A stretch of DNA of 64,000 bases from Shimia sp. (lineage in GTDB: Bacteria; Pseudomonadota; Alphaproteobacteria; Rhodobacterales; Rhodobacteraceae), in the NCBI GenBank assembly GCA_024224295.1, contig JAAENN010000255.1:1-64000 (forward strand). Reading direction: 5' to 3'. Below are positions 32,684 to 54,012 of the stretch, one piece after another (the stretch's first letter is position 1; the number at the start of each line of letters is the position of its first letter). Below the pieces are notes generated by a model. It was given only the letters and a program-made list of their open reading frames with translations. It had not been told where the DNA came from and did not search any database. Position numbers and translations under genes: made by a program.

Positions 32684-32709
32684 CTGCCGGTCTGACGGGG
32701 AGGGTCAGA

Positions 32710-34893
32710 TCAGTTGGCGGCAGGTTCGATGTTTCCGATGTTCACGAACATCGTCTCGCCGGAGTGATCGTCCACACCATCGTTGTCGGTGGAGAAGATA
32801 GCTGTGCCGTCTTCAAAGATCGCCAGACCCTCGACTTTATCCAGAACATAACCACCGGTGGCGGTCAGATCGCTCAGCAGGTCGCGGACCAGAGCTTTGG
32901 AGACAACCGGCAGCTCGCCACCCAGTGGGGCCGGGACCATTTCGGACGCTGGCACGCGGTAGATCTTCTTGGTTACGGCGCGGTGATCGTGCTGGTTGTC
33001 ACGCTCCACAATGTAAACCCAATCGCCATGGGCGACGATTTCGGACAGCCCCACCCAGCCGGTGTCCGGCTTGGCTTTCGGATAGTGCACTGCGCCCCAT
33101 TCCTTGGTTTCAAGGTTGTAGGATACGAGTTTCACGTGATCCGTAGGATCACCCTTCCACTCGCGTTGTACGGCCATCCAAAGGGTGTCGCCGATCTTGG
33201 TAATGCCTTCAAAACCGAAGCGCTTTTCAACAGCTGCTAGCTCTGCCGGGATGCCAAATTCGCCTTTCAGGTTCTTGATCGAGCCGTCGGCTTGCACGTG
33301 ATAGACCGCGTGCGGGATCAGGCGCTCGGTGCGGCCTTCAGAGGCAACGTAGAAGCCGCCTTTGCCGTCCAGCGTGATGCCTTCGAGGTCAAGTTTCTGT
33401 GCTGGTGCGCCGTTACGAGTCACGCGGATCACGTCCACGATGCGAGCCGGGGTCTGGTTGGTGTCGATCTTGAAGATCGAAGGTTGGAAGCCGTAGAAGC
33501 TGTCATTTACAGCCCAGACGATGCCGTCCTTGTCTGCTACCATGCCGGAGATCGCTCCCCAGCCGATCAGCTCATCCGCGCCTTCAGATGTCAGGTGCGG
33601 ATAGGTTGCTGGCGCGTCCTGATATTCAAAGAGCATAACGTGCGCACGTGCGCCGCCGTCTTCGATCAGGTCTTTTTCGTTGGCAGAAACCAGCAGGTTT
33701 CGCTCTGGAATGGCGACATAGCCTTCTGGACCTACACCAGAGGGCAGCAGCTGCTTTAGAACAGGCGCGGCTGGGTTGGTAACGTCATAGACACCCACCA
33801 CGGAAGCACGTTCGGCGCCAACAAACACGTAAGGTGTGCCGTTGAAGGTGGCGAAGGTCACGCTTTCAGGCTCGACACCTTTGCTATCGGAGCGCTTGTC
33901 CGGGTAGTGACCGATCTGGATGATGGCTTTCTCAAAGTCGGTGCCGCTTTCGTACACGACGGTGCCGTCCTTTTGGAAGATGGTCCAGCCGCGGGAGCCG
34001 CCGCCCATATCACCTTCGTTTGCGGTGGCGAAGTGGTTGTCGCCGATCCATGCAACGGCGTCAGGCTCGCGCAGGCGACTTTTCTGGCTTTCAGTGAAGA
34101 TCAGCGCGCCGCGTTCATCCGTGGCGTCGATGCCTTCCAGATCAACAGCTCCAGCAGAGAAATGCGAGGTGATTTCGCCGTCTTTGGAGACAACCACCAT
34201 GTGGTTGTTTTCCTGCAGGCTCACAACAGTTTCACCCAGAGCGTTGATGGAGACATACTCTGGCTCCGGATCTTCCGGGGAGACTTCTGCCAGGCCGGTC
34301 ATGTCGACCATTCGCAGCGTGTCGCAGGCCGGTTCGCCGTTTTTCAGGTCTATCATGGCGAGCATACCTGCTGGCATCTGACCGGTACGGCCGTCGCCGA
34401 GGTCTTCGTCACGTTCGTTTTCGATGGCAACGGATACGAAGGAGGCGTCGGGTGCAACTGCGACGCTGTCAGGCTGACCTCCGAGGTGACAGGACGTCGC
34501 AACGGAGCCGGTCTTGATATTGATGGCTTGCAGGCTGCCAGAGGGTGCGGTGAAGCTCTCAGACGTGTTGACTCCCACGATGGCAAAGTCATTCAGAATG
34601 CCAACTGAGGTTGGCTCGCCGGATAGCGCGATGTTGCCAAGTGGTTTGGGGTTGGATGGATCAGTAATGTCGATGCGGCCCAGAACGCCCAGCGGGCTGT
34701 CGGTGTAGACCAAGGTCATACCGTCCGCGGAGGCGGCGATGATCTCTGGGGATGTCTCACGCGTGGTGTCCTCGCCTGCAGCCATGTTTTTGACCACGGG
34801 GAAAGAGGCAATCCGGTTGAAGTTCATCTCTGCGGCGGCGTGACCTGCGGTCAGCGCCAGCGCGGAGGTCAGGCAAAGGCTGCGAAGCAACAT
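32710..34893 (-). CDS. Secreted esterase-like-activity-of-phytase family protein
   Basis: The 727-residue protein starts at MLLRSLCLTSALALTAGHAAA (GGAG 8 nt upstream), a clear signal peptide. The N-terminal half is a beta-propeller with repeated strands (IDITDPSNPKPLG, SVAVAPDASFVSVAIENERDED, YDVTNPAAPVLKQ; choice-of-anchor-like). The C-terminal part has the phytase-like esterase motifs LDLEGITLDGKGGFYVASEGR and FGFEGITKIGDTLWMAVQRE. It is expected in the periplasm as a phosphoester hydrolase. A three-repeat PHO-box-like sequence upstream supports phosphate control. This is a single-gene unit. Confidence 0.88.
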   Translation of the reverse strand: MLLRSLCLTSALALTAGHAAAEMNFNRIASFPVVKNMAAGEDTTRETSPEIIAASADGMTLVYTDSPLGVLGRIDITDPSNPKPLGNIALSGEPTSVGILNDFAIVGVNTSESFTAPSGSLQAINIKTGSVATSCHLGGQPDSVAVAPDASFVSVAIENERDEDLGDGRTGQMPAGMLAMIDLKNGEPACDTLRMVDMTGLAEVSPEDPEPEYVSINALGETVVSLQENNHMVVVSKDGEITSHFSAGAVDLEGIDATDERGALIFTESQKSRLREPDAVAWIGDNHFATANEGDMGGGSRGWTIFQKDGTVVYESGTDFEKAIIQIGHYPDKRSDSKGVEPESVTFATFNGTPYVFVGAERASVVGVYDVTNPAAPVLKQLLPSGVGPEGYVAIPERNLLVSANEKDLIEDGGARAHVMLFEYQDAPATYPHLTSEGADELIGWGAISGMVADKDGIVWAVNDSFYGFQPSIFKIDTNQTPARIVDVIRVTRNGAPAQKLDLEGITLDGKGGFYVASEGRTERLIPHAVYHVQADGSIKNLKGEFGIPAELAAVEKRFGFEGITKIGDTLWMAVQREWKGDPTDHVKLVSYNLETKEWGAVHYPKAKPDTGWVGLSEIVAHGDWVYIVERDNQHDHRAVTKKIYRVPASEMVPAPLGGELPVVSKALVRDLLSDLTATGGYVLDKVEGLAIFEDGTAIFSTDNDGVDDHSGETMFVNIGNIEPAAN

Positions 34894-34939
34894 CTGTGCG
34901 TCTCCGTGTTGAATACTACGCGGGACATCGCACGGGCAG

Positions 34940-34968
34940 GTGACGCATCTGTAACGGAGGAGTGACAG
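34940..34968 (-). promoter_or_regulatory. Candidate PHO box (PhoB site) with three 11-bp repeats
   Basis: On the minus strand CTGTCAC, CCGTTAC and GCGTCAC recur exactly every 11 bp, matching the PHO-box layout (7-bp repeats with 4-bp spacers; consensus CTGTCAT). It ends 46 bp upstream of the phytase-like gene start. Confidence 0.6.
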
Positions 34969-35062
34969 AATTGTTAAAGCCCATAGAGCAGGTGTCACAA
35001 AAGGTGTTTGAGGTTTGAAATAGTTTCGCCCAGAGTACTTTTCAGTCTTGGGGAGAGAGCAG

Positions 35063-38358: not shown

Positions 38359-38402
38359 TGAGACCGATGTAAATGGGCGTAACATTTCCCATATCAGTCT
38401 CA
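38359..38402. promoter_or_regulatory. Nested inverted repeat upstream of the AAA cluster
   Basis: TGAGAC and GTCTCA form outer arms and ATGGG and CCCAT inner arms, symmetrical about position 38382, in the gap before the coiled-coil gene. It may be an operator or leader structure for the cluster. Confidence 0.4.
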
Positions 38403-38427: not shown

Positions 38428-39504
38428 ATGGCGAATTTTGAAACCCAAGTGCGTGAGTCTCAGGCGCAAGTGGCCGAAGCACAAAGCAAGATTGCCGAGC
38501 TGACCGGGCGCATCGATGCGGCACGGGCGAAGATGAAAACCGGCGATGATGTTGCGATTGATATTGAGAACGCGACGCTGGACGATGTGCACGCGCATAC
38601 GGATGTGATGAACGCCAATATCGCTGAGCTGATCATGGGGCTGGATGACGTGACATCCGCCTTCTCCAAAGACTTCGATCAGATGCGGGATAAGACCGGT
38701 TGGGAAGCTTTTGTTGGTGTGTTCAGCCGTGGCAAATCTGACTCCATGCGCGCCGAGCGGATCAAAACCGCAAACATTGATGACAAGCTGCAGGACCTGA
38801 TTGCCAAATCCGACGTGATCACCAAGCTGTTGGAGGGCCAGCTGACCGTGCTCGAAGAGCAGAAGCTCAAGGTCGAGCAAAACCTGACCGAGACCCTAGA
38901 TGAGCGCGAGTTCACTGTTGGCGAGCTGGAAAGCCTGCGCGCCGAGATTTTGGGCATGGATCCCAAGATCATCGAGATCGAAAACAAGATTGCGGTGGAG
39001 CAGGACGCGGCGGCGCGGACCAAGCTTGAGACTGAGCTGGCGGACCTGAACAAAGCCTACAACGATTTGGTGCAGCAGGAGCAGGTGAAACTGTCCAAGA
39101 GCCAGACACTGGAGCGTTATATCGAGAAGGGCAAGACCTGGGTCGACTCGCTGCAGAACCAGGCGGCGACGCAGATGGTGCTGATCAACAAGCTGCAAAC
39201 AGACACCAAGCAGCGCGTGGTGCTCTACGATGCGCTGACCAAATCGTTGAAGACCGCACAGCAGCAGGACATCGCTCACCGGATCAACGAGATTGGTGTG
39301 GAAACCGACAAAGAGGCACAGGCGTCAATGGCGGCGATTGGCACGGCGACCAATCAGAAAATGGCCGACATGATGGAAGCCCACGAGGAGCATATGGTGT
39401 TTGCACGCGATGTGTTGGAAGCGAAGGCCAAGGCGGATGAACGCTTTGCCCGGCGGTTCCAGAAGATTGTCGAGAAGCACGACAAGAACCTATATGGGGC
39501 GTAA
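38428..39504 (+). CDS. Coiled-coil protein, TelA-like in layout; first gene of AAA cluster
   Basis: The 358-residue soluble protein is nearly all predicted helix. It has no signal peptide, and long heptad-rich segments (FETQVRESQAQVAEAQSKIAEL, LTVLEEQKLKVEQNLTETLDE in parts). The middle and C-terminal thirds (QTLERYIEKGKTWVDSLQNQAATQMVLINKLQTDTKQRVV, in parts) resemble the helical organisation of TelA/KlaA toxic-anion-resistance proteins. That is a fold-level impression only. It opens the plus-strand cluster that includes an AAA+ ATPase. A scaffold or membrane-stress role is speculative. Confidence 0.8.
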   Translation: MANFETQVRESQAQVAEAQSKIAELTGRIDAARAKMKTGDDVAIDIENATLDDVHAHTDVMNANIAELIMGLDDVTSAFSKDFDQMRDKTGWEAFVGVFSRGKSDSMRAERIKTANIDDKLQDLIAKSDVITKLLEGQLTVLEEQKLKVEQNLTETLDEREFTVGELESLRAEILGMDPKIIEIENKIAVEQDAAARTKLETELADLNKAYNDLVQQEQVKLSKSQTLERYIEKGKTWVDSLQNQAATQMVLINKLQTDTKQRVVLYDALTKSLKTAQQQDIAHRINEIGVETDKEAQASMAAIGTATNQKMADMMEAHEEHMVFARDVLEAKAKADERFARRFQKIVEKHDKNLYGA

Positions 39505-39510
39505 GGCAAT

Positions 39511-39888
39511 TTGATTGTGTCTCGTGTCTTCCTAAGGTGGGGAACTCTGGCAGCAATCATTGGGCTTGTCATGGCGGTTTATGGGCTGCTTTCGGGGGAG
39601 TTCTCGATTGCGCAGCTGGGTGAGCGAGCCCCTATTCAGCTTACCGGTAACTCAACACGAAATGGCCAGTTGTTCTTTGCTCTCATAATTTCTGTACAGT
39701 TCCTTATTGGGGGCATCTTTGGAATTTTGGGTCGGGCTAACATGTTGAGAATTTGGTGCGATCCCCAGATTTGGGACCGTTTGAAGCAGAGTAAGTGGCG
39801 CCTGTTCATGAATGGAAATTCCTATCGCTTGATGGTTTGGCTGCTTGATTTGCCGCCAGTTCCGAAGCCAGAGCAGGCTAAACACTAA
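39511..39888 (+). CDS. Small membrane protein of unknown function, AT-richer insert
   Basis: The 125-residue frame starts at TTG 39511 (GTG 39517 is also possible; AAGG is nearby) just after the coiled-coil gene. It has two membrane helices (GTLAAIIGLVMAVYGLL and LFFALIISVQFLIGGIFGIL) and a basic cytoplasmic tail (LRIWCDPQIWDRLKQSKWRLF). I recognise no family. Base composition is visibly lower in GC than in the neighbouring genes, suggesting later insertion. Possible roles include toxin, immunity or a membrane regulator; none is shown. Confidence 0.55.
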   Translation: MIVSRVFLRWGTLAAIIGLVMAVYGLLSGEFSIAQLGERAPIQLTGNSTRNGQLFFALIISVQFLIGGIFGILGRANMLRIWCDPQIWDRLKQSKWRLFMNGNSYRLMVWLLDLPPVPKPEQAKH

Positions 39889-39979
39889 TGTCACTGGTGT
39901 TAGGCGAACAGGGCAAATTGGAACGGGGTTTTCTTTATGAGGAATTGGTTTTGACATGTGAATTCAACATAGGAGAGCG

Positions 39980-39998
39980 CCCGCCCTGGGGGGGCGGG
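39980..39998. repeat. GC-rich hairpin beside AT-rich inserts
   Basis: CCCGCCC-TGGGG-GGGCGGG forms a 7-bp stem in otherwise AT-leaning sequence. It resembles the block at 44345-44386 (GCGCCC, CC, GGGGGG, TCGG in the same order). Confidence 0.45.
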
Positions 39999-40052
39999 GT
40001 CGGACGCGATCCGTGACACTGCGTGTCTCGGGATTGCAATGGGGCTGACAAA

Positions 40053-40364
40053 ATGAAGCATGCGACAAAAATGGCGATTTTCACCCCCGGAGTTCTGGTT
40101 GCGGGCGGTCTGCTAGAGGCAATGGTCGACGCTAGCTTTGATTTGCGGGCGTTGTGGCAGCTATTCGGCCTAGCCGAGATTCTATACATTTCTGTGCTTG
40201 GCGGGCTTGGCGGCTATTTCTTCGTTGGCAAATTGGGTCCAAGCCTCTTTCAAATAGTGTTATTCAGTTTACCACACGAAAAGAGAACGCAGGCGCTTCG
40301 AGGTGCAAGTAGCTTCTCTTTAAGTTTGTTGGGGCTGGATAGATTTGGCAACAAACTGCCTTGA
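40053..40364 (+). CDS. Small membrane protein of unknown function, AT-richer insert
   Basis: The 103-residue frame starts at MKHATKMAIFTPGVL (GGGGCTGACAAA upstream). It has two hydrophobic segments (MAIFTPGVLVAGGLLEAMV and LYISVLGGLGGYFFVGKL) followed by a basic, Ser/Leu-rich tail. I recognise no family. It sits between the first insert and the conserved 375-residue gene, and its lower GC suggests acquisition. The coding call rests on frame length, ribosome-site spacing and membrane pattern, so it is tentative. Confidence 0.5.
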   Translation: MKHATKMAIFTPGVLVAGGLLEAMVDASFDLRALWQLFGLAEILYISVLGGLGGYFFVGKLGPSLFQIVLFSLPHEKRTQALRGASSFSLSLLGLDRFGNKLP

Positions 40365-40389
40365 ACGCGCATTGGTATGATGAACTGAT

Positions 40390-41517
40390 ATGACCAACTC
40401 CAATCCTCACCAAGACCACACCGCTCTGATGGAGACCCGCGCGTCGCGGCGGTATTTCCAGAAGTTTGAGCGTATCACCGAGCATCTGACACAGGTGGCG
40501 GCGGCGCGGGCGGCTGAGGGGGCGATTGGCGACAATGAGGTGGAAATCCTCACGCGCTATCTGGCGGCGATTGGCTACACCTTCAAAGCGCTGAGCATGA
40601 AGTATTTGTTGGTGGGGCGTTCGACCGGGCAGTTTTTTGGCAGTCTCGCGATGGATGCGGTGGAGAGCGGTTTTCCGGTGTTCAACGAGCTGTTGGTGAT
40701 GGCCAATGACGCGCAGCAAGCGGAAAGCCATTTGCGCAATATGCCAAGCGCGGAACAGCTCAAGGACGACATGCTGCGCAGCATCGTTGGTGATCAGGAG
40801 ATTCCGACGAAGCTGCAATTCGCGTTGAGCCAGCGGCTTTATTATGAGGAGCTGCTGAAAGGTGAGCTGTTCTGGGCGCAGAACCATCCGGAGGTGCGCT
40901 GGCAGGGCAATCTGTCGGAACGGCGGCGCCAGTATTTGGTGCATTGGGCGGTCTATGACAGTCAGGTGAACCTGCCGACGATCTACCTGATGGACCTTGA
41001 GGACACCGGGCGCCGTGCCTTGCCCAAGGACGAGCGGCGCTGGCCAGAGGTTCAGGCACATCTGATGGCGCAGGCGGTGGGCGGTTTAAAGCTGGTGACC
41101 ATTGCCAAAGGCTTTGATGAGAGCTTTGACGATCTGCATCCCAAGCGGCTGCGGCGAATCCACGTGGGGCCGATGTACTCGAGTGCATTTACCAAGCAAA
41201 CCGGGCCGATCCGCGAAGTCCTGGAAGCCGCACGAGCGCCGGACGGTGAAGATTGGACGCTGGCTTGGACCACTGAGGATTTGGTGAGCGAGCGCGTCAC
41301 CGATGAACGGTCTGGCTGGTTTGGCACGGTGGAGCGCGAAGTCTTTGCGCTGGATCCGTTTTCCGGGCGCGGCGTGGACACAGGCGCAACCAGCATGGAG
41401 CGTTCGATCATTCTGCCACAGCGGCCGTTCCAGGCGCTGGAAGAGCTGAACCCACCGGGGTTTGGCAATGTGACGAAGTATGTGGTGAGCCCGCAGGGCC
41501 GGGTGTTGCGGTATTGA
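40390..41517 (+). CDS. Conserved protein of unknown function in the AAA cluster
   Basis: The 375-residue, probably cytoplasmic protein has no signal peptide or membrane helix. It is helical at the N-terminus (TRASRRYFQKFERITEHLTQVAAARAAEG in parts) and mixed toward the C-terminus (PKRLRRIHVGPMYSSAFTKQTGPIREVLE, SMERSIILPQRPFQALEELNPPGFGNVTKYVVSPQGRVLRY, in parts). I recognise no motif of a catalytic family. Codon use is GC-rich like the ATPase gene, and I take it as a core component of the cluster. It may be an adaptor or substrate-recognition partner of the ATPase, but that is speculation. Confidence 0.8.
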   Translation: MTNSNPHQDHTALMETRASRRYFQKFERITEHLTQVAAARAAEGAIGDNEVEILTRYLAAIGYTFKALSMKYLLVGRSTGQFFGSLAMDAVESGFPVFNELLVMANDAQQAESHLRNMPSAEQLKDDMLRSIVGDQEIPTKLQFALSQRLYYEELLKGELFWAQNHPEVRWQGNLSERRRQYLVHWAVYDSQVNLPTIYLMDLEDTGRRALPKDERRWPEVQAHLMAQAVGGLKLVTIAKGFDESFDDLHPKRLRRIHVGPMYSSAFTKQTGPIREVLEAARAPDGEDWTLAWTTEDLVSERVTDERSGWFGTVEREVFALDPFSGRGVDTGATSMERSIILPQRPFQALEELNPPGFGNVTKYVVSPQGRVLRY

Positions 41518-41528
41518 GTGGAAACGGA

Positions 41529-41897
41529 ATGAATTGGTTTCTAAAATTTCTCGCCATAGTCACATTATTCGGTTGCGCAAAAATTCCGGAAGCGGACGAA
41601 CAATGGGCGAACCAAAATGTACCCCTAGGTGGTGAACGAATAGATGTCGAAGATCGCTTGATTCATCGAGGTTTTGGTTTCAGCGACTATGGTTACCGTC
41701 CTGAGAGTTCAGCCCGCGAACCATTTGGATCTGTTGGCTTCGTTGCGGCACATTCCGCTGCACCTAGCGCCCCTCAATGTTATGCCAAGCCTTACTCTCG
41801 GTTGATAGCATCGGGGGACCGATTGATTTGTGTAAGTTATTCTAAAACCGGCGAAGTTCTTTGGCGAGGGGTCGGGTGGTTTGGAGCGAGTTTGTAA
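41529..41897 (+). CDS. Putative lipoprotein, AT-richer insert
   Basis: The 122-residue frame starts at MNWFLKFLAIVTLFGCAKIPEAD. It has a short hydrophobic signal and the lipobox LFGC, so it is probably a lipoprotein. The mature part has Cys pairs (PQCYAKPYS, DRLICVSYS) and aromatic residues. A sampled 60-bp line within it (41641-41700) is 45% GC, against 67% for one in the next gene (42121-42180). It lies between the 375-residue gene and the ATPase. The function is unknown. Confidence 0.6.
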   Translation: MNWFLKFLAIVTLFGCAKIPEADEQWANQNVPLGGERIDVEDRLIHRGFGFSDYGYRPESSAREPFGSVGFVAAHSAAPSAPQCYAKPYSRLIASGDRLICVSYSKTGEVLWRGVGWFGASL

Positions 41898-41913
41898 TGA
41901 AAGGTCGAAATGA

Positions 41914-43854
41914 ATGAGCCTGACAAGTGATCAGATGGAGCTGCGCGAAGAGGATATTCGCAAGCATTATGACGCGGCTGTGGGAATGCTTGATGGCTTT
42001 GATCACACGCCGCGGATTGCCAAAGGCAAAGACCCTGTGGCCGCGCCGGAACGCTCTAGCGGGATTGGCACGCGGCGGCGGTTTCGCAGCACCACGCCGG
42101 GGTTGGTGACACGCTCAACCGCGCGGCCGGAAGGTGTGCATCTGGTGGAGCGTATCGAGGGTGCAGGTGGGGAAGATCCGCTGGTGTCGCCGGTGCAGGC
42201 CAATGTGCTGCATGGGATGCGGCGCGCGTTGGCGATTGCTTTGGCCGTGGGGGAGAATTTCGCAGAGGCGTCAGGCTTGGCGGCGTTGAAGCGGGAAAAT
42301 CTCGCCGGGGCACTGGGTGCCGATAAGAAGGCCGCGTTCTCAGAACTCTTGGCGGCAGAGGCTTTAGCGGTTGCCTATGTTTTTGCCAATGCGACCTCGT
42401 TCCTGCTGGCGCCTTTGTTGGGCGAGACGCAGGTTGAGGTGGGCGAGGTTGAAGAGGTTTTGACCGACAATGCGCAGCTGGCGTTGCATGGCGCGTTGTG
42501 GGAGCTGGATCAGGACATCGCCGCGTTGGTCAGCGATGAAGATCGGCTGGTTTCCTGTGTTTGTGCCTTTGCCGAGCAGTTGATGGAGAAGGTCGCGTTG
42601 CGGGCGCAGAACGCGCCGCAGCTGGGCGCTTTTGTGGGCGCGAGCTGGAAGGTAGAGGCCGATGAGCTGACGATCAATGGGTTCACACCCGCGCGGGCGG
42701 CGAAGGGCTCTACGCTGACCATGAGTTTCAAAAAGCCCAATGAGGTGGTGGGCAACCACATTGCCAAATACCAGGCAATGAAATTGGCCAAAATGTTGAT
42801 GGCTTATGACTTTGATCGGCGGCTCAATCCGTTTGCGGAGCTGGGTGGGTTCATTTTTACCTTCATGGGTGACGGCGCGCCGGGCACCGGGAAAACCACG
42901 CTCATTCAGATGATGGCCGGGTTGATCAACGACTATTGTCAGGTTGCCGGATACGCCTTCCGCTATCAGAACTTTGGCATCGACAATATCGACAGCTATC
43001 AGGGCAAATCGGGGCAGAATGCCAAGGCTTTTGTGCAGAATGTGCTGGACCCGCAGGTGATAGGTTTTGGCACGATTGATGACATCGACCAAATTGCGGG
43101 CAAACGTGGGGATCGGCAGAGTTCTGCCGGGCAACAGGAGGTCACAGCGGTGTTTATGGAGGCCTTTGCAGGCGCCAACACCGTGGTGCGCGGGAATTGT
43201 ACATTTGGCATGTTCTCGAACTATCCGGAGAATGTGGATGATGCCTTGCGCCAGCGGGCCGGGGCACGGTTTCTGGTGGATGGGCCGCAAACACAAGAGG
43301 ATTACATCGACATCCTTGCGCTGTTGATGGGCAAGAACCATGACATTGCGCTGGGCGATCACGAGCTGTTTGAGGCGCAGGCCATTCAAAAGGCTGTGGC
43401 GGCAAGCTTTGAGAGCCATTCCCGGCCCCATGAGCCGGGGTTGTTGAACGTGTTTGACAAGGTGCATGGGCAGGTGGGCGCGTTGGACACAATTGCCAAG
43501 ATGGGCACGTACCTAAAGGCCATTCAGGAGGCTGATCCGCGCTTTACCGGTCGTGCGATCAAGAACATCACCGACGCCGTGAAAGTGCGGGCGATGGATT
43601 TTGAATTGCCGGATGAATGGATGGAGCAGCCGGAGTTATTCTTGCAGAAAGACTACGACACCAAGAAGGCGATGATAAACGAACTGCGGGTGCCGACCAC
43701 CACCGACATGGTGGTGCAGGAAATCAACCGCTATGCCGATAGCGAGTTCCGCTATGCCGACAAATCCGATGAGGTCGCGATCTCCAATATGGTGCGCGAC
43801 ATGCAGCGGTCCGAGGCGGCGAAGCGGCGGTATCTGGAGGGCAAAACCTCGTGA
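41914..43854 (+). CDS. AAA+ ATPase with uncharacterised 300-residue N-terminal region
   Basis: In the 646-residue protein the first 60 residues are polar and likely disordered, and residues about 60-300 are a helical domain I do not recognise. The AAA module starts near 300, with Walker A GAPGTGKTTLI (about 320-330), Walker B GFGTIDDID (about 384-391), and sensor-1/arginine-finger region GMFSNYPENVDDALRQRAG (about 432-450). A C-terminal lid and helical tail follow. An invariant-looking Asp-Asp-Ile-Asp and the RQR arginines argue for an active hexameric ATPase. It could remodel a protein or membrane complex formed by cluster partners. Its stop overlaps the next gene by 4 nt (GTGA). Confidence 0.88.
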   Translation: MSLTSDQMELREEDIRKHYDAAVGMLDGFDHTPRIAKGKDPVAAPERSSGIGTRRRFRSTTPGLVTRSTARPEGVHLVERIEGAGGEDPLVSPVQANVLHGMRRALAIALAVGENFAEASGLAALKRENLAGALGADKKAAFSELLAAEALAVAYVFANATSFLLAPLLGETQVEVGEVEEVLTDNAQLALHGALWELDQDIAALVSDEDRLVSCVCAFAEQLMEKVALRAQNAPQLGAFVGASWKVEADELTINGFTPARAAKGSTLTMSFKKPNEVVGNHIAKYQAMKLAKMLMAYDFDRRLNPFAELGGFIFTFMGDGAPGTGKTTLIQMMAGLINDYCQVAGYAFRYQNFGIDNIDSYQGKSGQNAKAFVQNVLDPQVIGFGTIDDIDQIAGKRGDRQSSAGQQEVTAVFMEAFAGANTVVRGNCTFGMFSNYPENVDDALRQRAGARFLVDGPQTQEDYIDILALLMGKNHDIALGDHELFEAQAIQKAVAASFESHSRPHEPGLLNVFDKVHGQVGALDTIAKMGTYLKAIQEADPRFTGRAIKNITDAVKVRAMDFELPDEWMEQPELFLQKDYDTKKAMINELRVPTTTDMVVQEINRYADSEFRYADKSDEVAISNMVRDMQRSEAAKRRYLEGKTS

Positions 43855-44231
43855 TCGTGCTCGACAGCATTGGGTTTGTGAACACGGGACTGCCGTTGAT
43901 TATGCTTGGTGTACTTGCCGTGCTGATCCCGCGGTTTGTGATTGATCGGGCGACACGGTCGCATGGCGACGTGTTTCGCGGGATCTGCAGGACAGTGATG
44001 TTTTTGCTGAGCGTCGGCTTTTTGATGTCGTACGTGTTGACCTACACACGTGGCGTGCACGCCTTGGCGCTTGGGGCCTCGCCAGAGCTTGGAACAGCCT
44101 TTTGGATGCATCTGCGGCTGTCGTTGATGGCGGCAATTGTTTGGGCACCAATCTTGGCGCTGGTGTGGTTTGGTAAAGCGCAGGGCGTGGAAGCGCGGCG
44201 CGGGCAGGATATTGCGGCGGGGAAGCGGTGA
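43851..44231 (+). CDS. Small membrane protein coupled to the AAA ATPase
   Basis: The 126-residue protein begins at GTG overlapping the ATPase stop. It has three hydrophobic segments (GLPLIMLGVLAVLIPRFVI, ICRTVMFLLSVGFLMSYVL, LRLSLMAAIVWAPILALVW) and a short basic tail. I recognise no family. GC-rich codon use and the 4-nt overlap make it a core cluster member, presumably anchoring the complex in the inner membrane. Confidence 0.75.
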   Translation: MIVLDSIGFVNTGLPLIMLGVLAVLIPRFVIDRATRSHGDVFRGICRTVMFLLSVGFLMSYVLTYTRGVHALALGASPELGTAFWMHLRLSLMAAIVWAPILALVWFGKAQGVEARRGQDIAAGKR

Positions 44232-44344
44232 TGCTGGCGATGAGGACCGCGCCCGACCTGGTGGGCGCTTTGAATTGGTTCGGAGTTGGTGCTTTGGTGC
44301 AAGGAGCGCAGGTGTTGGTGTGTGTGGCTGACGGTGCAAACGCG

Positions 44345-44386
44345 CCCTCCGGGGGGAGGTCGGGTGCGGCCCGGCTTGAGGCCGGG
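44345..44386. repeat. GC-rich palindromic block before AT-rich insert
   Basis: CCCTCCGGGGGGAGG is followed by CCCGGC-TTGAG-GCCGGG. It lies between two cluster genes and just upstream of the AT-richer gene at 44425. A related GC-rich hairpin sits beside the inserts at 39980. Confidence 0.45.
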
Positions 44387-44424
44387 TCGATTGCATTCAT
44401 GGCTGCAGACAAAGGTTTCGCAGT

Positions 44425-45288
44425 ATGATCGATGCCGAAAAAAGAAAGAGCAAATCCTTTTGGCGAATAGGCAATCCGATCATGTGGGCGTGTACCGCGA
44501 CCACAGTGTTTGTCGGCCTAATTGTTTGGTTCGGGATGGCCGAAACCTGCAATATTGACCTTTTCCCAAAAGGCGATTGTCCTCCAAAATGGCGACACCT
44601 TCGTGCTGCCCCGTTTAACGAGGTCGGAGATACACTGGCCGGGATTGCAGGTGTTCTTGCTTTCATCTGGCTAATCGCGACGGTTTTGCTGCAATCCATC
44701 GAATTGGGGGAACAGCGAAAAGTGCTTGCATTGCAAAAAGAAGAAATGGAGGAGCAGAGAAAAGCCACCCAAGACATGGCGCGATCTATGTCGGCTCAAG
44801 CGAAGGTTTTTGAAGATGAGATGAAACATAGCGACCAAGTTTCTGCTCGTGAGGAATTCTCTGAATTAGTGTTATCGACGCTACAGTTAACAGAGAACTG
44901 TGCTGCCAGTTGGCGAATAAGGCGCAAAGCACAGGTTGGTTACAACGAGGTGGAGCTCGACTTGTTTCAGGACTACTACAACGACGTTAGGGAAGATCGA
45001 GGAAGGCTACCGACGTTTGATGATGCTTTGGATGTATTTCCTTCGATGAACAATGAGGTCGAATGCGTGGTAAGAGACGCAAGTTCAAAGGCGTTTAATA
45101 TCGTCAAGCGGCCCCTAAAAAGCAGCTTCCCGGCAAATCTTCTTTTGAAAGCACAACTTGCTTGCGCCTTAATTCCTCGTTTGAGTCCAGCTGATGTCGA
45201 GAAAATCGATCGATCTGAGTTGGCGGAGCTGGCTAACAACCTTCAAGTTGCTGAAAACGCAAAGATTTGGGCGGAGGATGAAGTATGA
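44425..45288 (+). CDS. Two-helix membrane protein with coiled coil, AT-richer insert
   Basis: The 287-residue protein has a basic N-terminus, a first helix (IMWACTATTVFVGLIVWFGMA), a short loop with Cys (ETCNIDLFPKGDCPP), and a second helix (LAGIAGVLAFIWLIATVLLQ). A coiled coil (GEQRKVLALQKEEMEEQRKATQ in parts) and a soluble C-terminal domain of about 140 residues follow. GC is visibly lower than in flanking genes (47-50% in two sampled 60-bp lines against 60% in one line of the next gene). Its stop overlaps the next start (ATGA), so it is integrated in the transcript. The helix-helix-coiled-coil-soluble layout recalls membrane sensors of phage-defence loci, but no known domain was recognised. 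Confidence 0.75.
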   Translation: MIDAEKRKSKSFWRIGNPIMWACTATTVFVGLIVWFGMAETCNIDLFPKGDCPPKWRHLRAAPFNEVGDTLAGIAGVLAFIWLIATVLLQSIELGEQRKVLALQKEEMEEQRKATQDMARSMSAQAKVFEDEMKHSDQVSAREEFSELVLSTLQLTENCAASWRIRRKAQVGYNEVELDLFQDYYNDVREDRGRLPTFDDALDVFPSMNNEVECVVRDASSKAFNIVKRPLKSSFPANLLLKAQLACALIPRLSPADVEKIDRSELAELANNLQVAENAKIWAEDEV

Positions 45289-46640
45289 AACGTCTCATTG
45301 AACGCGGCTTGATGTTTGGCAACCTGATTGAAGTGGTCTCGCCGGTTTTAGTGGAGCGTTACAATCGTGCGCTGAAACATCTGACGGGCAAGACCACCAA
45401 TCTCACCGATTTTCACATCGATATCTCGGGCTATTCGCCGGAGATTGGCGATGAGCTGAACGACCACCTCTACCTCAACCACGGGGGCTGCAACCGGCAG
45501 TTCATCCTGCTGACCACGGATCAGAAATCCGCGCCGTTGTTGAACATTAAGTTTTCCACCAGCCGCGATATCCTGCGGCATTTCATTGAGGAAAACGAGC
45601 CGCAGCTGTTTGCCCTGACCGCGCGGGATGCCGTCGCAGGCGAGTTGGTGAACTCGGTGTTTTCTGTGAGCCAGCCCAGCAAGCTGATGGACATTCGTAA
45701 GGTCACGATTGAGGCGGACACGACTGAAGGCACGCTGCGCGACGCGGAGAAGCTGGGCGAACTGGCGGATCGGTTCAAGCAGGAGGAAGACGGCTGGTTT
45801 GATGATGTGCTTATCGCGGACATGATCACGCTCGCGAAACGCACTGGCGACGTGACGCGCAATCCGGTGACGCTCAAACACATGGCGTTTGATCAGCAGG
45901 ATTACTGGACCGCGCATTTTGGCGGGGTCTACTTGTTCCGAGGATTGGCGCATCCAGCGGTGATCACGGCGGGCGACAAGGCCGAGCTGGGCAAGCTGCC
46001 GATCAAATACACGTTTGATTTCAAAGACCGAAATCAGATTGCGAAGTTTCTGGACTACAATGATCTGGCCGAGCCAATTGTGAAGGCGCGGGGCGTGGAT
46101 GGCGCGGCCATTCTGCGCCAAAAGATGGATTTCATAGTGGTTGATGCGGCGCAGGAAGCGGGGGTGGACCTAACGGGCGCGACGCGCAGTGACATTCGCC
46201 GATTGGCGCGTAATCATGCAGAGCAATTGCCACCAGAATACCATGAGCTGCGCAAGATGGTGGATTGGGCGGAAAGCGATGGCAAATGGCCGAAGATCAC
46301 CAGCGATCATCCGGCGTATTTCTATACGCTGCGGGCCACGGACACGGATCAGCGCGATCTGGTGAATATGCTGCTGTCAGAGCTGGCGCCAAAGGATATT
46401 CGACAGCTGTTTATTTGCCATAAGGAAGTGTTTTATCGCCTCTATCAAGGCTGGTCGGAGACCAAGAAGAGCTTTGTGGCGGATTTCTTGGAGCGAGAGT
46501 ATCAGGTCGACAAAGTGGGCGCGCGCGAGGCGTTGTTTGGCTTTGATGCGCCGCTGGAGATGCCCCGTGTGACGCGACGGGCGTCTGAGGATATGATATC
46601 GCGGGTTGGTCCGTGGGGCGCAGTCAAATCGGGACGGTGA
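45285..46640 (+). CDS. DUF6638-like protein of unknown function
   Basis: The 451-residue protein is soluble, with mixed alpha/beta sequence (MKRLIERGLMFGNLIEVVSPVLVERYNRALKHL, GGCNRQFILLTTDQKSAPLL, in parts). From memory it resembles the Rhodobacteraceae family DUF6638; I cannot confirm this here. The C-terminal third contains KDIRQLFICHKEVFYRLYQGW. It is a core cluster member by GC content and gene order. It begins inside the stop of the AT-richer gene and ends 11 bp before the next gene. Confidence 0.75.
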   Translation: MKRLIERGLMFGNLIEVVSPVLVERYNRALKHLTGKTTNLTDFHIDISGYSPEIGDELNDHLYLNHGGCNRQFILLTTDQKSAPLLNIKFSTSRDILRHFIEENEPQLFALTARDAVAGELVNSVFSVSQPSKLMDIRKVTIEADTTEGTLRDAEKLGELADRFKQEEDGWFDDVLIADMITLAKRTGDVTRNPVTLKHMAFDQQDYWTAHFGGVYLFRGLAHPAVITAGDKAELGKLPIKYTFDFKDRNQIAKFLDYNDLAEPIVKARGVDGAAILRQKMDFIVVDAAQEAGVDLTGATRSDIRRLARNHAEQLPPEYHELRKMVDWAESDGKWPKITSDHPAYFYTLRATDTDQRDLVNMLLSELAPKDIRQLFICHKEVFYRLYQGWSETKKSFVADFLEREYQVDKVGAREALFGFDAPLEMPRVTRRASEDMISRVGPWGAVKSGR

Positions 46641-46651
46641 GGAGGTAGAGC

Positions 46652-46918
46652 ATGTTTGCATTGGCGAGATTGTCGGTTGTGGGCTTTGTTGTGCTCACCA
46701 TCATCTATGTCTGTCTGTCACTTTATTCGCGCTCCAAACGGCGCGACAAGTTAGAGGCAGAGTGGGACAGTGAAGGCATGAGCGGTGATCGGGATGCCTT
46801 TATTGAGCAAGGGCTGCAAGACTATGATGGCTCTTTGCGTCGCAAATTGATCTGGGGTGTCTATATCATTCCCGTGACCATCGTGATCGCTTTGATCTAC
46901 TTTATGAATTTCCACTAG
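46652..46918 (+). CDS. Small two-helix membrane protein
   Basis: The 88-residue protein starts at MFALARLSVVGFVVL with a good GGAGG. It has an N-terminal membrane helix (SVVGFVVLTIIYVCLSLY), a charged middle (SRSKRRDKLEAEWDSEGMSGDRDAFIEQGL in parts) and a C-terminal helix (YIIPVTIVIALIYFMNF). Such small proteins commonly precede DUF1523 genes in this group, in my recollection. It is followed 12 bp later by the DUF1523 gene. Confidence 0.8.
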   Translation: MFALARLSVVGFVVLTIIYVCLSLYSRSKRRDKLEAEWDSEGMSGDRDAFIEQGLQDYDGSLRRKLIWGVYIIPVTIVIALIYFMNFH

Positions 46919-46930
46919 GGGGACCAAGGA

Positions 46931-47581
46931 ATGGTCTATGTGAAATGGGGTTTCTGGACGCTGTTCTGGCTATTTGTGGCGGCGTTCTTTCACTACACGC
47001 TGCCGCAACATGATGTGGTGCGTGTGACCGATACCTATGAGAAGCGGATTGATTTTGGCGAGAACTCGATTTTCTGGGCCAAATCGGATGCGGGCAATGC
47101 CGAGACAACTGTCAATCGTGACGTGTTTTTTATCGAGACAAAGATGCCCAACGATCGGGTTATGGTCTATCGCAACGAGGACACCAGCGCCGGTTGGCCA
47201 CCATATTTCAAGTTTGATACTGCCAACCTTCAGGCTGAAGCAGGCGACCTGAAATCTAGTTCGGATGCGCCGAAATGGGTGGCGGTGAAGCACTATGGCT
47301 GGCGCAACGAGTTCCTGTCGATTTATCCTAACGCGGTGGGTGTGAAGCCCGTGGATGGTCCGGATGTGACGTTCATTCCTTGGCTGAACATCCTGATCCT
47401 GGCGGTGTTTTTCGCAATGGTTTGGGCAATTTACGTGCGCTGGCGTCGGTTCCGTCAGGCGCGGATTGATCCGGTGCTTGAAGATATGGGCGACAGCTTT
47501 GAAGCAGCTGGAGACAATCTGGCAGAGAAGCGGGGGCGGTTCCGCGCCTGGCTCGACACCTGGCGCGGGAAGGCGCGTTAA
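46931..47581 (+). CDS. DUF1523 family membrane protein
   Basis: The 216-residue protein has an N-terminal helix (WGFWTLFWLFVAAFFHYTL), a periplasmic domain and a second helix (FIPWLNILILAVFFAMVWAIYVRW). The periplasmic domain has the DUF1523 hallmark VVRVTDTYEKRIDFGENSIFW, then DVFFIETKMPNDRVMVYRNEDTSAGWPPYFKFD (in parts). A basic tail ends it. The function of DUF1523 is unknown. It is the last gene of the cluster; its stop overlaps the convergent soeC by 4 nt. Confidence 0.88.
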   Translation: MVYVKWGFWTLFWLFVAAFFHYTLPQHDVVRVTDTYEKRIDFGENSIFWAKSDAGNAETTVNRDVFFIETKMPNDRVMVYRNEDTSAGWPPYFKFDTANLQAEAGDLKSSSDAPKWVAVKHYGWRNEFLSIYPNAVGVKPVDGPDVTFIPWLNILILAVFFAMVWAIYVRWRRFRQARIDPVLEDMGDSFEAAGDNLAEKRGRFRAWLDTWRGKAR

Positions 47582-49281: not shown

Positions 49282-52092
49282 TCATTTATCCACCTTCCAT
49301 TCCAAATGATCCGGGCCTTGGGGGACCGGTGACTTGATGGGATCAAGGGCCGGCTGACTTTCGCTTTGGGCCTCGGCCTTTGCGATTTTCACACGTAGAT
49401 CAAACCAAGCGGCTTGACCGGTGATGGGGTCTGAGTTGGCCCACCGCAAGCCATCGCCTTTGGGCGGTAGGAGCTCGTGGATCAGGTGATTGAGTAAGAA
49501 ACCTTTGTTGGCTTCCGGCGCGTCCTCGGAGAGCGCCCAGGCTCCTTTGCGTTTGCCAATCGCGTTCCAGGTCCAGACGGTGTTTTCGTTAAGTGCGGCC
49601 TGATGCGCCACAGGCACTGTGATCTCGCCATGAACTGACGTCACGCGGGCCCAGTCACCCTCCGAAAATCCGTGTTTCTCCCAAAGCTTGGTTGGGAGAT
49701 AAAGCGGATTCTCACCGTGCAGCTGCCGCAGCCAAGCGTTTTGGGTGCCCCAACTGTGGTACATTGCCATCGGGCGTTGGGTGAGGGCGTGCACGTCAAA
49801 TTCGTCAGGATCGACGCTGCTGTCTTCCAGCGGTGCATACCAGATTGGTAGCGGGTCCATGACCTCTTTGAGGCGGTCGCGCATGTGATCTGGTGGCTGG
49901 ATGTCGCCGTGGCCTTCGGCGGCACGTTGGAATTTACGCATTGGTTCTACGTAGAGCTGGAACAGGTAAGGTTGGGGGGCATCAAACAGGCCGATTTTCA
50001 CCGCCCAATCCTGATAATCTTGATTCCAGGGTTTCATGTAGCGGGCGGCATCTGGCACGTGTTCAATCGCAAAGCCGCCGTTTTCGATGTATTTGTCGAG
50101 TTGCTCGGGATTGACAGTACCGCGACCAAACTGATCACCATCTTCGCCGCGGAATCCTGCGAGGGGGCCAACGCCTGGGCGGCGTTCGTGGTTTACGATG
50201 TAGTCGGCGTAGTCCTTCCATTTTGGTGTGCCGTCCTCATTGAGGAAGTGTGGCAAGCCGATGCGGGCACCAAGCTCAATAAGCACGGATTGAAAGCCGC
50301 GCACGTCCCGATCCGGCTCTACCACCGGCCAACGGATCGCGTCGGCGGCGCCGTCAGCTTCGCAAATGGGGCGGTCCAAGAGTGAGATGCAGTCGTGTCG
50401 TTCCAGATAGGTGGTGTCGGGCAGGATCAGGTCGGCATAGGCGACCATCTCAGAGCTGTAGGCATCGGAATAGATGATGCGAGGGATGCGGTAGCCGCCG
50501 TCGTCATTGCGGTCGGTGAGCATCTTGATCACGCCGGAGGTGTTCATGCTGGAGTTCCACGACATGTTGGCCATGTACATGAACAGCGTGTCGATTGGGT
50601 AGGGATCCTGTGCGTGGGCGTTCGAGATCACCATATGCATCAAGCCATGCACGGACATGGGGTTTTCCCATGTGAAGGCTTTGTCGATGCGGCAGGCGGA
50701 GCCGTCTTCGTTGATTTGCAGGTCTTCTGGACCGCGTGGGAAGCCGAGGTGGGGCCCGGCGAGCGGTTTGCCGGGACGGCCGTAGCCGTGCGGTGTTGGG
50801 TGGGCCTCTACCGGCTTTGGATAGGGCGGTTTAAAGCGGAAGCCGCCAGGGACTTCGACGGTGCCGAGGAGGATTTGAAGCACATGCAGGGCGCGGCAGG
50901 TTTGGAAGCCGTTGGAATGGGCCGAAATGCCACGCATGGCGTGGAAGCTGACCGGGCGGCCCGTCATGGTCTTGTGAGTTTCGCCCCGGAAATCGGTCCA
51001 TTCCTGTTCCAGTTCAAAGGCCTCGTCAAAGGCGACACGCGCCAATTCGGCAGCGATGGTTTTGATCTTTTGGGCGGCGATGCCGGTTTTCTCGGCGACG
51101 TTTTCCGGCGCGTACTGCGGGTCGAGATACTTTTCGGCCATCAAGTGCATCACCGTGCGATGGGTGACACCGGCTTGGCGATAGGTGGCGGAGAGATCAG
51201 GGCGTACGCCCTTTTGGTCAAACGGTGTCGGTTTGCCAGTGGTGCGGTCAATCACCAACTGTTTGCCATCCTCATCGCGCATCAACAGGCCAGTTTCGGC
51301 GTCCACCAGCACGGCGGCGTTGGTGTATTGCGCTAGGTAGTGCAGGTCGATCTTACCGGCTTTCATCAGTTCGTGCACGAGGCTGAGAATGAAGAGACCG
51401 TCGGTGCCGGGTGTAATCCCAACCCATTCATCTGCCACAGCGTTGTAGCCGGAGCGTACAGGGTTCACGCCAATGACTTTCGCACCGCGCGCTTTGATTT
51501 TACCGATGCCGGCTTTGATCGGGTTGCTGTCGTGGTCTTCGGCGACGCCAAAGATCATGAAGAGTTTGGTGTGGTCCCAATCTGGTTGGCCAAATTCCCA
51601 GAAGGCGCCGCCCATGGTGTAGATGCCTGCCGCAGCCATATTGACCGAGCAAAAGCCGCCGTGTGCCGCGTAGTTGGGTGTACCGAAGTGTTGTGCCCAA
51701 AAGCTGGTGAAGCTTTGGGATTGGTCACGACCGGTGAAGAACGCCAATTTGTGTGGCGCGGTTTCGTGCAACTCCGTGAGCCAACCAACGGCGGTGCTCA
51801 TGGCCTCTTCCCAGCTTATCTCCTCATATTCGCCGGAACCACGGGGGCCGACCCGTTTGAGTGGTTTTTTGAGGCGAGAAGGCGCGTTCACCTGCATGAT
51901 CCCGGCGGAGCCTTTGGCGCAGAGCACGCCTTTGTTCACTGGGTGATCGCGGTTGCCTTCGATATAGGCAACTTTGCCGTCTTTCATGTGCACGTTGATG
52001 CCACAGCGGCAGGCGCACATGTAACAGGTCGTCTGACGTATCTCGTCAGAGACTTTTGGACTGATGTTGAGGTCGGGTTGCTGGAACGTCAT
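49282..52092 (-). CDS. soeA: Sulfite dehydrogenase molybdopterin subunit SoeA
   Basis: The 936-residue member of the DMSO-reductase superfamily has an N-terminal 4Fe-4S motif CYMCACRCGINVHMKDGKV ending in GVLCAKGSAG. Molybdopterin-binding domains follow (FFTGRDQSQSFTSFW, GVNPVRSGYNAVADEWVGI in parts, RIIYSDAYSSEMVAYADLILPDTTYLE in parts), then a C-terminal dinucleotide-binding domain. No twin-arginine signal is present, agreeing with the cytoplasmic SoeA. It oxidises sulfite to sulfate, removing the product of Xsc. It is the first of soeABC and lies 20 bp after the YeiH-type exporter gene. Confidence 0.93.
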   Translation of the reverse strand: MTFQQPDLNISPKVSDEIRQTTCYMCACRCGINVHMKDGKVAYIEGNRDHPVNKGVLCAKGSAGIMQVNAPSRLKKPLKRVGPRGSGEYEEISWEEAMSTAVGWLTELHETAPHKLAFFTGRDQSQSFTSFWAQHFGTPNYAAHGGFCSVNMAAAGIYTMGGAFWEFGQPDWDHTKLFMIFGVAEDHDSNPIKAGIGKIKARGAKVIGVNPVRSGYNAVADEWVGITPGTDGLFILSLVHELMKAGKIDLHYLAQYTNAAVLVDAETGLLMRDEDGKQLVIDRTTGKPTPFDQKGVRPDLSATYRQAGVTHRTVMHLMAEKYLDPQYAPENVAEKTGIAAQKIKTIAAELARVAFDEAFELEQEWTDFRGETHKTMTGRPVSFHAMRGISAHSNGFQTCRALHVLQILLGTVEVPGGFRFKPPYPKPVEAHPTPHGYGRPGKPLAGPHLGFPRGPEDLQINEDGSACRIDKAFTWENPMSVHGLMHMVISNAHAQDPYPIDTLFMYMANMSWNSSMNTSGVIKMLTDRNDDGGYRIPRIIYSDAYSSEMVAYADLILPDTTYLERHDCISLLDRPICEADGAADAIRWPVVEPDRDVRGFQSVLIELGARIGLPHFLNEDGTPKWKDYADYIVNHERRPGVGPLAGFRGEDGDQFGRGTVNPEQLDKYIENGGFAIEHVPDAARYMKPWNQDYQDWAVKIGLFDAPQPYLFQLYVEPMRKFQRAAEGHGDIQPPDHMRDRLKEVMDPLPIWYAPLEDSSVDPDEFDVHALTQRPMAMYHSWGTQNAWLRQLHGENPLYLPTKLWEKHGFSEGDWARVTSVHGEITVPVAHQAALNENTVWTWNAIGKRKGAWALSEDAPEANKGFLLNHLIHELLPPKGDGLRWANSDPITGQAAWFDLRVKIAKAEAQSESQPALDPIKSPVPQGPDHLEWKVDK

Positions 52093-52112
52093 CTGGCCTC
52101 CCTTGGGCGCGT

Positions 52113-53165
52113 TTATCCGGTGAGCAAGTAAATCCCCGCGAGAATGAAGCCTGCGATGAAGAGGGTTTCGACGAAAATAAGCGCGATGGCTGCGCCGCCG
52201 ACGCCAAGTACCTGTTTGAGGTTTGTTTTCATGCCCACGGCAGCGACGGCGGTAAGCAGGAGATAACGGGAGGTTTCGCCCAGCAGGTCAGAGAGGAATG
52301 CTGGAATGAAGCCAAGTGAATTGAGCGCTGCAAGGGCTAGAAAGCCTATCACGAAGCCAGGCAGGACCGGGGGGCGCTCGCCGGTTTCCGGGGCCTCGGC
52401 AAAGTTGCGGATCAGCATGGAGGTGATCAGAACCACGGGGGCCAGCATGGCGACGCGGATCAACTTAACCAGCACGGCGGTGTCGCCTGCCTCCTGGCTG
52501 ATAGAGAAGCCTGCGCCAGCAACCTGAGCCACATCATGGATGGTGCCTCCGAGGAAGACACCCGCCATTTGGTCGTTGAGCCCAAAGACATCTACCAGCG
52601 GTGGATAAGCGATCATCGCGACGGTGGACATAACGGTGACGCCCATGACGGTGAAGAGCAAGCGCTCTTCAGAGCGGGCGTCTTTGGGCAAAATTGCCGC
52701 AATGGCCATGGCGGCAGAGGCGCCGCAGATGGCAACGGAGCTGGCCGTGAGTGTCGAAAAGCGCCACTTGTGGCCGAACAGTGGCGCCACGAGCAAGCCA
52801 AAGAGGATGGTTGCAACCACGCCGAGGATGATCAGCAGGAGTAGTTGCCAGCCCAGTTCCATGACCATCATTGCGGAAACACGAGCGCCAAGCAGGGCCA
52901 CGCCCAGGCGGAGGACTGTTTTAGCCGCAAAGCCGACGCCCTCGACGGTGCGGCCTTCTTCGCCAAGGAAATTGAGCGCAATGCCAAACAAGAGCGCAAG
53001 CAACATAGCGGGTGCGCCGTGGTGCTCTGACAGAAGCTGTGCGGTTGCGGCCACCGTGACCGCGACGGCTACGCCAGGAAAATACCGGGCAAAATCTTCC
53101 CGAAGACGCCATTTGGTCTGCGCAGTGCGGCTAATTTGAGAGTTGGTTCTGTCTGCTTGGGTCAC
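52113..53165 (-). CDS. YeiH-family putative sulfate/sulfonate exporter
   Basis: The 350-residue protein has about ten membrane helices. YeiH/UPF0324 motifs are present: LSEHHGAPAMLLALLFGIALN, RLGVALLGARVSAMM, SVAICGASAAMAIAAILP, and FLGGTIHDVAQVAGAGFSIS. GTG serves as start (AAGGA upstream). The family is often annotated as putative sulfate exporter, and location between soeA and a TauE/SafE gene supports sulfur-anion export. The transported ion has not been shown by sequence. Confidence 0.88.
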   Translation of the reverse strand: MTQADRTNSQISRTAQTKWRLREDFARYFPGVAVAVTVAATAQLLSEHHGAPAMLLALLFGIALNFLGEEGRTVEGVGFAAKTVLRLGVALLGARVSAMMVMELGWQLLLLIILGVVATILFGLLVAPLFGHKWRFSTLTASSVAICGASAAMAIAAILPKDARSEERLLFTVMGVTVMSTVAMIAYPPLVDVFGLNDQMAGVFLGGTIHDVAQVAGAGFSISQEAGDTAVLVKLIRVAMLAPVVLITSMLIRNFAEAPETGERPPVLPGFVIGFLALAALNSLGFIPAFLSDLLGETSRYLLLTAVAAVGMKTNLKQVLGVGGAAIALIFVETLFIAGFILAGIYLLTG

Positions 53166-53256
53166 GCGCGGAAATCCTTCTTCTCCGAAGCTGTGGCAGA
53201 TTGGGTGTCTAGGTCAAGAGCGCGTTGTGTGCATGCCGTTGAGTTAGCAAGATCAG

Positions 53257-54012
53257 TCATGCGCCAATCCCTTGCCGAAGGATGCCTATTGTCGCCAACG
53301 TGATCAGCAGGCAGAGGCAAAACGGTTTATAGTATGGTTCCCAGTTGGGGCGGAACAGTGTCTTGCCGGCCATAACACCAAGCGCGGAGGCAGGGGCGAG
53401 CGCAAGGCCGCGAAGGGCGGATTGGGTATTCATGGCACCAAAGTAGGTCAAGGTTGCCAGAGAAATGACCGAGGATGCAAAGAGGAAAATCACCAGAGAC
53501 GCGCGCATTTCGCGGGCGGGGGCATTTGAGACCAGCACGTAGAGCGCAACAACCATGCCACCGACGCCAGCCAAACCGGTGACTATGCCAGCCAGTATTC
53601 CGGATCCCCAGAGGCCGGGGCGTGTGGCCAAGACTGGCAAGCGTAATTTGGCGAGCTGCGTGGCGGCAAGCACAACAATCACGCTTAAGGCGACCAGTTT
53701 GGAGGTTTCAACTGGCAAAGCCTGGGTCAGGCTAAGACCAAGGGGCAGGCCGAATGCAGAGCCCAGAACCAGTCCGGTCACCACGCGGCGGTTGGCGTCT
53801 TTCATACCGCCGCGCACCATTAGCAGCGACGCGGTCATTTCCTGAAACCAAAGAATCGGAATGAGCGCGATGGGAGCGAGGAACATCACTGCGATTGCCA
53901 TAACAACTGCCGACAAAGCAAAACCTGAGAAGCCGCGCACCATCCCTGCGGCAAAGCAAATCAGGATGAGCCAGAAAAAGTGGTCAGCGGGCAATGCGAG
54001 GGTGTCGAGCAT
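53257..54012 (-). CDS. TauE/SafE-family sulfite exporter of the taurine cluster
   Basis: The 251-residue protein has about seven membrane helices, with AAGMVRGFSGFALSAVVMAIA and GIVTGLAGVGGMVVALYVL as the two family repeats. In taurine clusters this gene (tauE, or the differently built tauZ) is proposed to export sulfite made by Xsc. Its ATG shares one base with the citrate synthase stop, so the two are translationally coupled. Confidence 0.88.
   Translation of the reverse strand: MLDTLALPADHFFWLILICFAAGMVRGFSGFALSAVVMAIAVMFLAPIALIPILWFQEMTASLLMVRGGMKDANRRVVTGLVLGSAFGLPLGLSLTQALPVETSKLVALSVIVVLAATQLAKLRLPVLATRPGLWGSGILAGIVTGLAGVGGMVVALYVLVSNAPAREMRASLVIFLFASSVISLATLTYFGAMNTQSALRGLALAPASALGVMAGKTLFRPNWEPYYKPFCLCLLITLATIGILRQGIGA

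Follow-up and report, generated by a model that had tools for sequence, protein, structure and literature searches.

Genes and features of the locus

The window, meaning the whole 64,000-nucleotide stretch of DNA that was analysed, belongs to a draft genome of 4.56 Mb, and it carries a plus-strand gene cluster preceded by a candidate dyad operator (Table 1). All seven ORFs named in an earlier note on this DNA (g1, g4, g6, g7, g9, g10, and g11) are present, as is the GTGA coupling of the three-helix protein to the ATPase gene, but four further ORFs inside the same span (g2, g3, g5, and g8) had been overlooked. The description of the genes as GC-rich holds for g1, g4, g6, and g9 (GC 0.56–0.60), for g7 (0.59), and for g11 (0.55), but not for g10 (0.48) or for g2, g3, g5, and g8 (0.48–0.50). 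We refer to the g1–g4, g4–g6, and g6–g9 intervals as slots A, B, and C, respectively.

Table 1. Positions in the window of the candidate operator and the ORFs
Feature	Position	Strand	Description
Dyad	38366..38385	+	Candidate operator with sequence GATGTAAAT-N4-GTAACAT; begins 62 nt upstream of g1
g1	38428-39504	+	358 aa coiled-coil protein; core
g2	39511-39888	+	Small membrane ORF; slot A
g3	40053-40364	+	Small membrane ORF; slot A; longer GTG start possible at 40023
g4	40390-41517	+	375 aa, weakly T-fold-like; core
g5	41514-41897	+	Lipoprotein-like ORF; slot B; lipobox-like Cys by eye
g6	41914-43854	+	Classical-type AAA+ ATPase; core
g7	43851-44231	+	Three-helix membrane ORF; slot C; GTG start overlaps TGA stop of g6
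g8	44425-45288	+	Two-helix ORF; slot C; distant kin of putAbiC-bearing slot proteins
g9	45285-46640	+	DUF6638; core
g10	46652-46918	+	88 aa two-helix protein; neighbouring pair
g11	46931-47581	+	DUF1523; neighbouring pair

A four-gene core and a separable neighbouring pair

A contig search with g6 returned at least 588 stretches from at least 581 relatives, and the best 80 loci were kept, some of them cut by contig ends. Among these best 80 of at least 581, tblastn detected g6 in 80, g4 in 79, g9 in 77, and g1 in 76, followed by g11 (74), g10 (73), and an upstream creatinase-like gene (34). The remaining genes were much rarer in the same 80 loci: g8 was detected in 11 and g7 in 5 (12 by linkage of slot ORFs), and g2, g3, and g5 in none. 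The deep unit is four genes in a fixed order, g1, g4, g6, and g9. At one MAG locus (L102), g6 alone of the tested genes was detected.

The core is found in marine and soil bacteria, in two proteobacterial classes and in more than 40% of 149 sampled Rhodobacteraceae genera, where g1 was counted in 65 genera, g4 in 63, and g9 in 69. In a sample across the phylum, g4 occurred in 26 of 398 genomes. Within the genus, g6 is present in 22 of 24 congeners, and g1, g4, g6, and g9 are 76–98% identical to those of the window in 20 congeners. All nine further regions taken from divergent genomes contain the four core genes, again in order. Among plasmid records, g6 was found on ten replicons, six from Rhizobiaceae (four of Sinorhizobium and one each of Shinella and Rhizobium) and four from Vibrio, and each of the five loci opened among them carries g1, g4, g6, and g9 in this order, with no match to g10 or g11. 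The Vibrio replicons of two loci (L119 and L121) are about 0.9 Mb long and listed as plasmids, and there the core lies directly before an mfd gene. In slot C of Sinorhizobium meliloti Ak57 (L118:11106-12851) we found an endonuclease-domain gene together with an ISRm16 transposase on the opposite strand. Two Halomonas loci (L076 and L088) contain the complete locus of the Rhodobacteraceae type, the core together with g10 and g11, with a g6 that is 75–76% identical to that of the window and a gapless slot C, and they were likely acquired by horizontal transfer.

In six genomes g9 occurs but g4 does not. For three of them g9 lies at a contig edge (G720, G780, and G818), in two the locus survives as decayed pieces (G742 and G819), and in the last (G768) the 3.3 kb upstream on the contig hold no detected core gene.

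The last gene of the cluster, g11, passes the cut-off of DUF1523 (PF07509; E 1e-68, 230.6 bits against a cut-off of 23), which confirms the earlier family assignment, and DUF1523 occurs in 130 of the same 149 Rhodobacteraceae genera. Of nine fetched regions that have DUF1523 but no detected g1, g4, g6, or g9, seven have g10 adjoining DUF1523, and two of these seven also contain a weak g7-like match (G026, E 0.002; G701, E 0.007). Because g10–g11 directly follows remnants of the core, a 60-residue g9 tail in G819 and fragments of both g1 and g9 in G742, the core has decayed in at least two genomes while the pair was retained. We conclude that g10–g11 is a separable neighbouring pair that persists without the core. 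The earlier proposal that seven genes form one system therefore needs to be narrowed: an ATPase-centred system of g1, g4, g6, and g9 stands, but g10–g11 is separable and g7 is slot content. The orthologues of the four core genes are co-conserved and not scattered among relatives, and scattering is seen in part for g10–g11 and g7. Four conserved proteins that are nearly unstudied, in a core that has itself been little studied, are thereby joined into one testable system.

The core proteins

Pfam cut-offs were passed only by g6 (AAA), g9 (DUF6638), and g11 (DUF1523) in a scan of the genes other than g10. The match of g6 to AAA (PF00004; E 7.6e-12, 46.3 bits against a cut-off of 21.2) covers residues 321–454, and all 12 of the 12 members aligned are identical in the ATP-binding, Walker-B-like, and Arg-rich segments, in agreement with the earlier reading of g6 as an AAA+ ATPase with intact motifs. 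The Walker-B-like segment reads TIDDID, with Asp-Asp at the usual Asp-Glu position, and a conserved Tyr-Gln-Gly is a candidate pore loop. The ATPase domain of an i-AAA protease (5ubv) matches g6 with E 2.6e-4, and no protease domain was found in g6, which has an N-region of about 300 residues outside any matched family and a single AAA domain. PADLOC gave weak matches to TRIP13 (7.1e-5) and IetA (0.0023), confined to the AAA domain of g6, and no match for g1, g4, or g9. By its family profile g6 is a classical AAA ATPase, and it is predicted to be active and to form a hexamer.

The match of g9 to DUF6638 (PF20343; E 2.1e-244, 811.6 bits against a cut-off of 27) bears out its earlier description as DUF6638-like. 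The structure models of g4 and g9 have pLDDT values of 87.7 and 86.9, and g4 gives weak T-fold-like (tunnelling-fold) matches, unlike g9, which gives none. No Pfam family is matched by g1 above its cut-off, and the invariant residues of g1 lie mostly in its C-terminal part.

The earlier note had called g1 TelA-like, and the length and helical make-up of g1, which are similar to those of TelA, would suit a tellurite or toxic-anion resistance cluster. However, none of 12 g1 members matched TelA (PF05816) at E 0.1, hhalign gave a probability of 5.8% with shallow profiles, and the true TelA of the window's genome is encoded on another contig (G000:C374:25944-26933, in L176; PF05816, E 5.2e-106). 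We have therefore dropped the TelA label, and we consider a resistance cluster of this kind very improbable indeed.

A hydropathy scan found no transmembrane segments in g1, g4, or g9 and two borderline segments in g6. The membrane proteins of the locus are neighbours or slot genes, and the earlier description of the system as envelope-associated is accordingly not upheld. A coiled-coil protein and a classical AAA+ ATPase adjoining membrane proteins could also point to membrane remodelling of the ESCRT-III/Vps4 or PspA kind, in which g1 would be a membrane-binding polymer, g6 its recycling ATPase, and g10–g11 the membrane partners, and pairings of PspA with AAA+ proteins are described in PMC11237479. 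Yet a profile search found no PspA match among g1 members, hhalign gave a probability of only 0.5% (again with shallow profiles), g10–g11 occurs without the core, and the core proteins have no clear transmembrane segments, so we regard membrane remodelling of this kind as rather unlikely.

A candidate operator before g1

The dyad before g1 is the sole match to its pattern in the window's genome. Its general form is about GATGTAAAT-N4-(T/G)T(A/T)ACAT. The second arm matches at 5/6 or better in 36 of 76 upstream regions, and every one of these has the same spacing. A simple dyad score of at least 12/14 was reached by 40 of 77 upstream regions as opposed to 0 of 385 mononucleotide shuffles. Across 25 whole genomes, GATGTAAANNNNNNTWACAT has 15 sites in 13 genomes, 13 of them before g1 (12 of these assigned from their distance to g6 or from a scan of congener sequences) and two elsewhere, and the reversed-pattern control has no sites in the same genomes. 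A looser dyad precedes g1 in 20 of 21 congener sequences, the window included, and no clear copy was seen by eye in the upstream regions displayed for other families and for Vibrio. Because the dyad is almost alone in the genome, its sequence pattern suggests a candidate operator with a dedicated regulator.

Turnover and content of the slots

Slots A, B, and C range in size from nothing to more than 2 kb. Among 20 congeners, g2 is present in 2, a g8-like gene in 4, and a g7-like gene in 11 (57–92% identity), and g3 and g5 are present in none. In two of these congeners (G004 and G023) the slots are almost empty, which shows that the core has no need of the slot genes. Most slot genes of the window are missing even from the six congeners whose g6 is 97% identical: all six have a g7-like gene (57–92% identity), two have g2, one has a g8-like gene, and none has g3 or g5. 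As a control, we counted two-sided replacement gaps, in which each side has over 150 bases without a match, along the collinear part of the window in these six congeners. The cluster, 54.9 kb in sum, has 16 such gaps versus 5 elsewhere, in about 209 kb; the binomial p of 9e-8 for this excess takes no account of shared ancestry or of the common reference. With one-sided gaps added, the counts are 19 in the cluster versus 22 elsewhere. No two-sided gaps fall at the g9–g10 and g10–g11 junctions in the six congeners. From these comparisons, we conclude that slot content turns over fast and that the core changes little. Elsewhere in the window, 32660-34995 and 52060-53257 are absent from several of the six congeners. 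A GC-rich element resembling a hairpin or inverted repeat was seen by eye in several congeners (L198–L217), where slot A ends and at other places.

When ORFs were called mechanically in slots A and C of all 80 loci and five ORFs of the window were added, the total was 136. At a BLASTP threshold of 1e-4, 77 of these remain singletons, a number to be read with the fact that short, fast-evolving proteins can escape such a search and that some calls will not represent genes. For family scans we used 146 slot ORFs of at least 90 aa on the plus strand, 140 aa on the minus strand, or 95 aa in congeners, and left out six slot ORFs of L208, L214, and L217, whose contigs are the same as those of L032, L034, and L033. 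At 1e-3, no more than 15 of the 146 match Pfam, with DUF4279 (3), Mrr (2), putAbiC (2), and DUF2971 (2) found repeatedly and Hint, PIN_10, DUF5655, DUF433, BrkB, and HATPase once each. PADLOC at 1e-4 matched 9 of the 146: two Mrr, AbiP, PDC-S18, HNH, two PDC-S31, and two partial DrmA-like proteins, one of the last two being inferred from the count. A flank control of 75 ORFs drawn from 492 matched 65 Pfam families, of which the 25 shown are ordinary ones, and three single-member PADLOC families, that is, at most 3 of 75 ORFs. The PADLOC frequency in the slots (9/146) is therefore not clearly raised over that in the flanks (at most 3/75). Slot ORFs are mostly orphans, and conflict-type genes are prominent only among the few that are annotated. 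The window's own g8 has no Pfam match, including to putAbiC (PF16872), and it is 31–32% identical to two putAbiC-bearing slot proteins (111 and 227 aligned columns), with most of the resemblance in the N-terminal half.

These observations can be read in a way that leaves the slot genes without a part in the system. The core would then be a cytoplasmic unfoldase, or a remodeller of polymers, of an ordinary kind that serves cell physiology, and its operon a neutral insertion hotspot where orphan, selfish, or defence genes persist on account of the promoter they acquire, unconnected in function with the core. A core that is conserved and stable within the genus, congeners with empty slots, and slot ORFs that are mostly orphans with no clearly raised PADLOC frequency are all consistent with such a hotspot. 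What speaks against it is that the same three junctions are used repeatedly and the genes are co-oriented (with ORFs taken longest first, slot C has 50 of 120 aa or more on the plus strand and 4 on the minus strand), and also that the g9–g10 and g10–g11 junctions are free of gaps in the six congeners. We hold the neutral hotspot to be a serious possibility, nearly as likely as the functional platform to which we turn now.

A proposed remodelling machine with exchangeable cargo

We tentatively favour the view that the core is an AAA+ remodelling machine passed on by inheritance and that its operon serves as a platform for exchangeable, partly anti-phage genes. In this view the core genes keep their order and are lost or transferred together. 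The mechanism that we infer would have a g6 hexamer pull on the coiled-coil protein g1 through its candidate Tyr-Gln-Gly pore loop, with g4 and g9 possibly serving as adaptors or sensors. The dyad may be the site of action of a dedicated regulator, which might itself be a core product, and slot genes lying between core genes would be produced together with the machine. The operon might answer envelope or phage stress, with slot genes as interchangeable backup effectors; we think this the most likely reading of its role because several of the few recognisable slot genes are of restriction or abortive-infection types. The kind of slot genes lends a stress or defence role indirect support, and the embedded effectors described for BREX and type I restriction loci make a conflict role plausible without proving it, but a slow-evolving core present in 22 of 24 congeners is unlike most defence systems and runs counter to it. 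The stronger proposal, that the core is a chromosomally inherited immune or stress hub of a new kind, consisting of an AAA+ remodeller, a coiled-coil target, two partners, its own operator, and exchangeable effectors that it commands from three fixed slots, seems to us doubtful.

If core and slots cooperate, the locus would be a new case of fast cargo carried by a slow core. The slots offer an ordered place for finding new conflict genes, and strains with empty slots are natural controls.

Comparison with known systems

The closest parallels in arrangement are BREX and type I restriction loci, which likewise have a multi-gene ATPase core and variable nuclease or abortive-infection genes inside the locus. 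PMC12839542 catalogues nucleases among the accessory effectors embedded in BREX loci, and PMC12707154 describes PrrC lodged in a type I restriction locus. The core described here differs in being slow-evolving and without PglZ, methyltransferase, helicase, or restriction subunit. Systems combining PSP or ESCRT-III proteins with AAA+ partners, as covered by PMC11237479, share a coiled coil adjoining an AAA+ ATPase, but no relation in sequence between g1 and PspA was seen (hhalign 0.5%, shallow profiles), and g6 has one AAA domain whereas the AAA+ partner described there has two. With the classical AAA+ remodellers FtsH, Vps4, and TRIP13, g6 shares the PF00004 domain, a candidate pore loop, and an Arg-rich second region, and it differs from them in its N-region of about 300 residues, in that no protease domain was found, and in its partners g1, g4, and g9.
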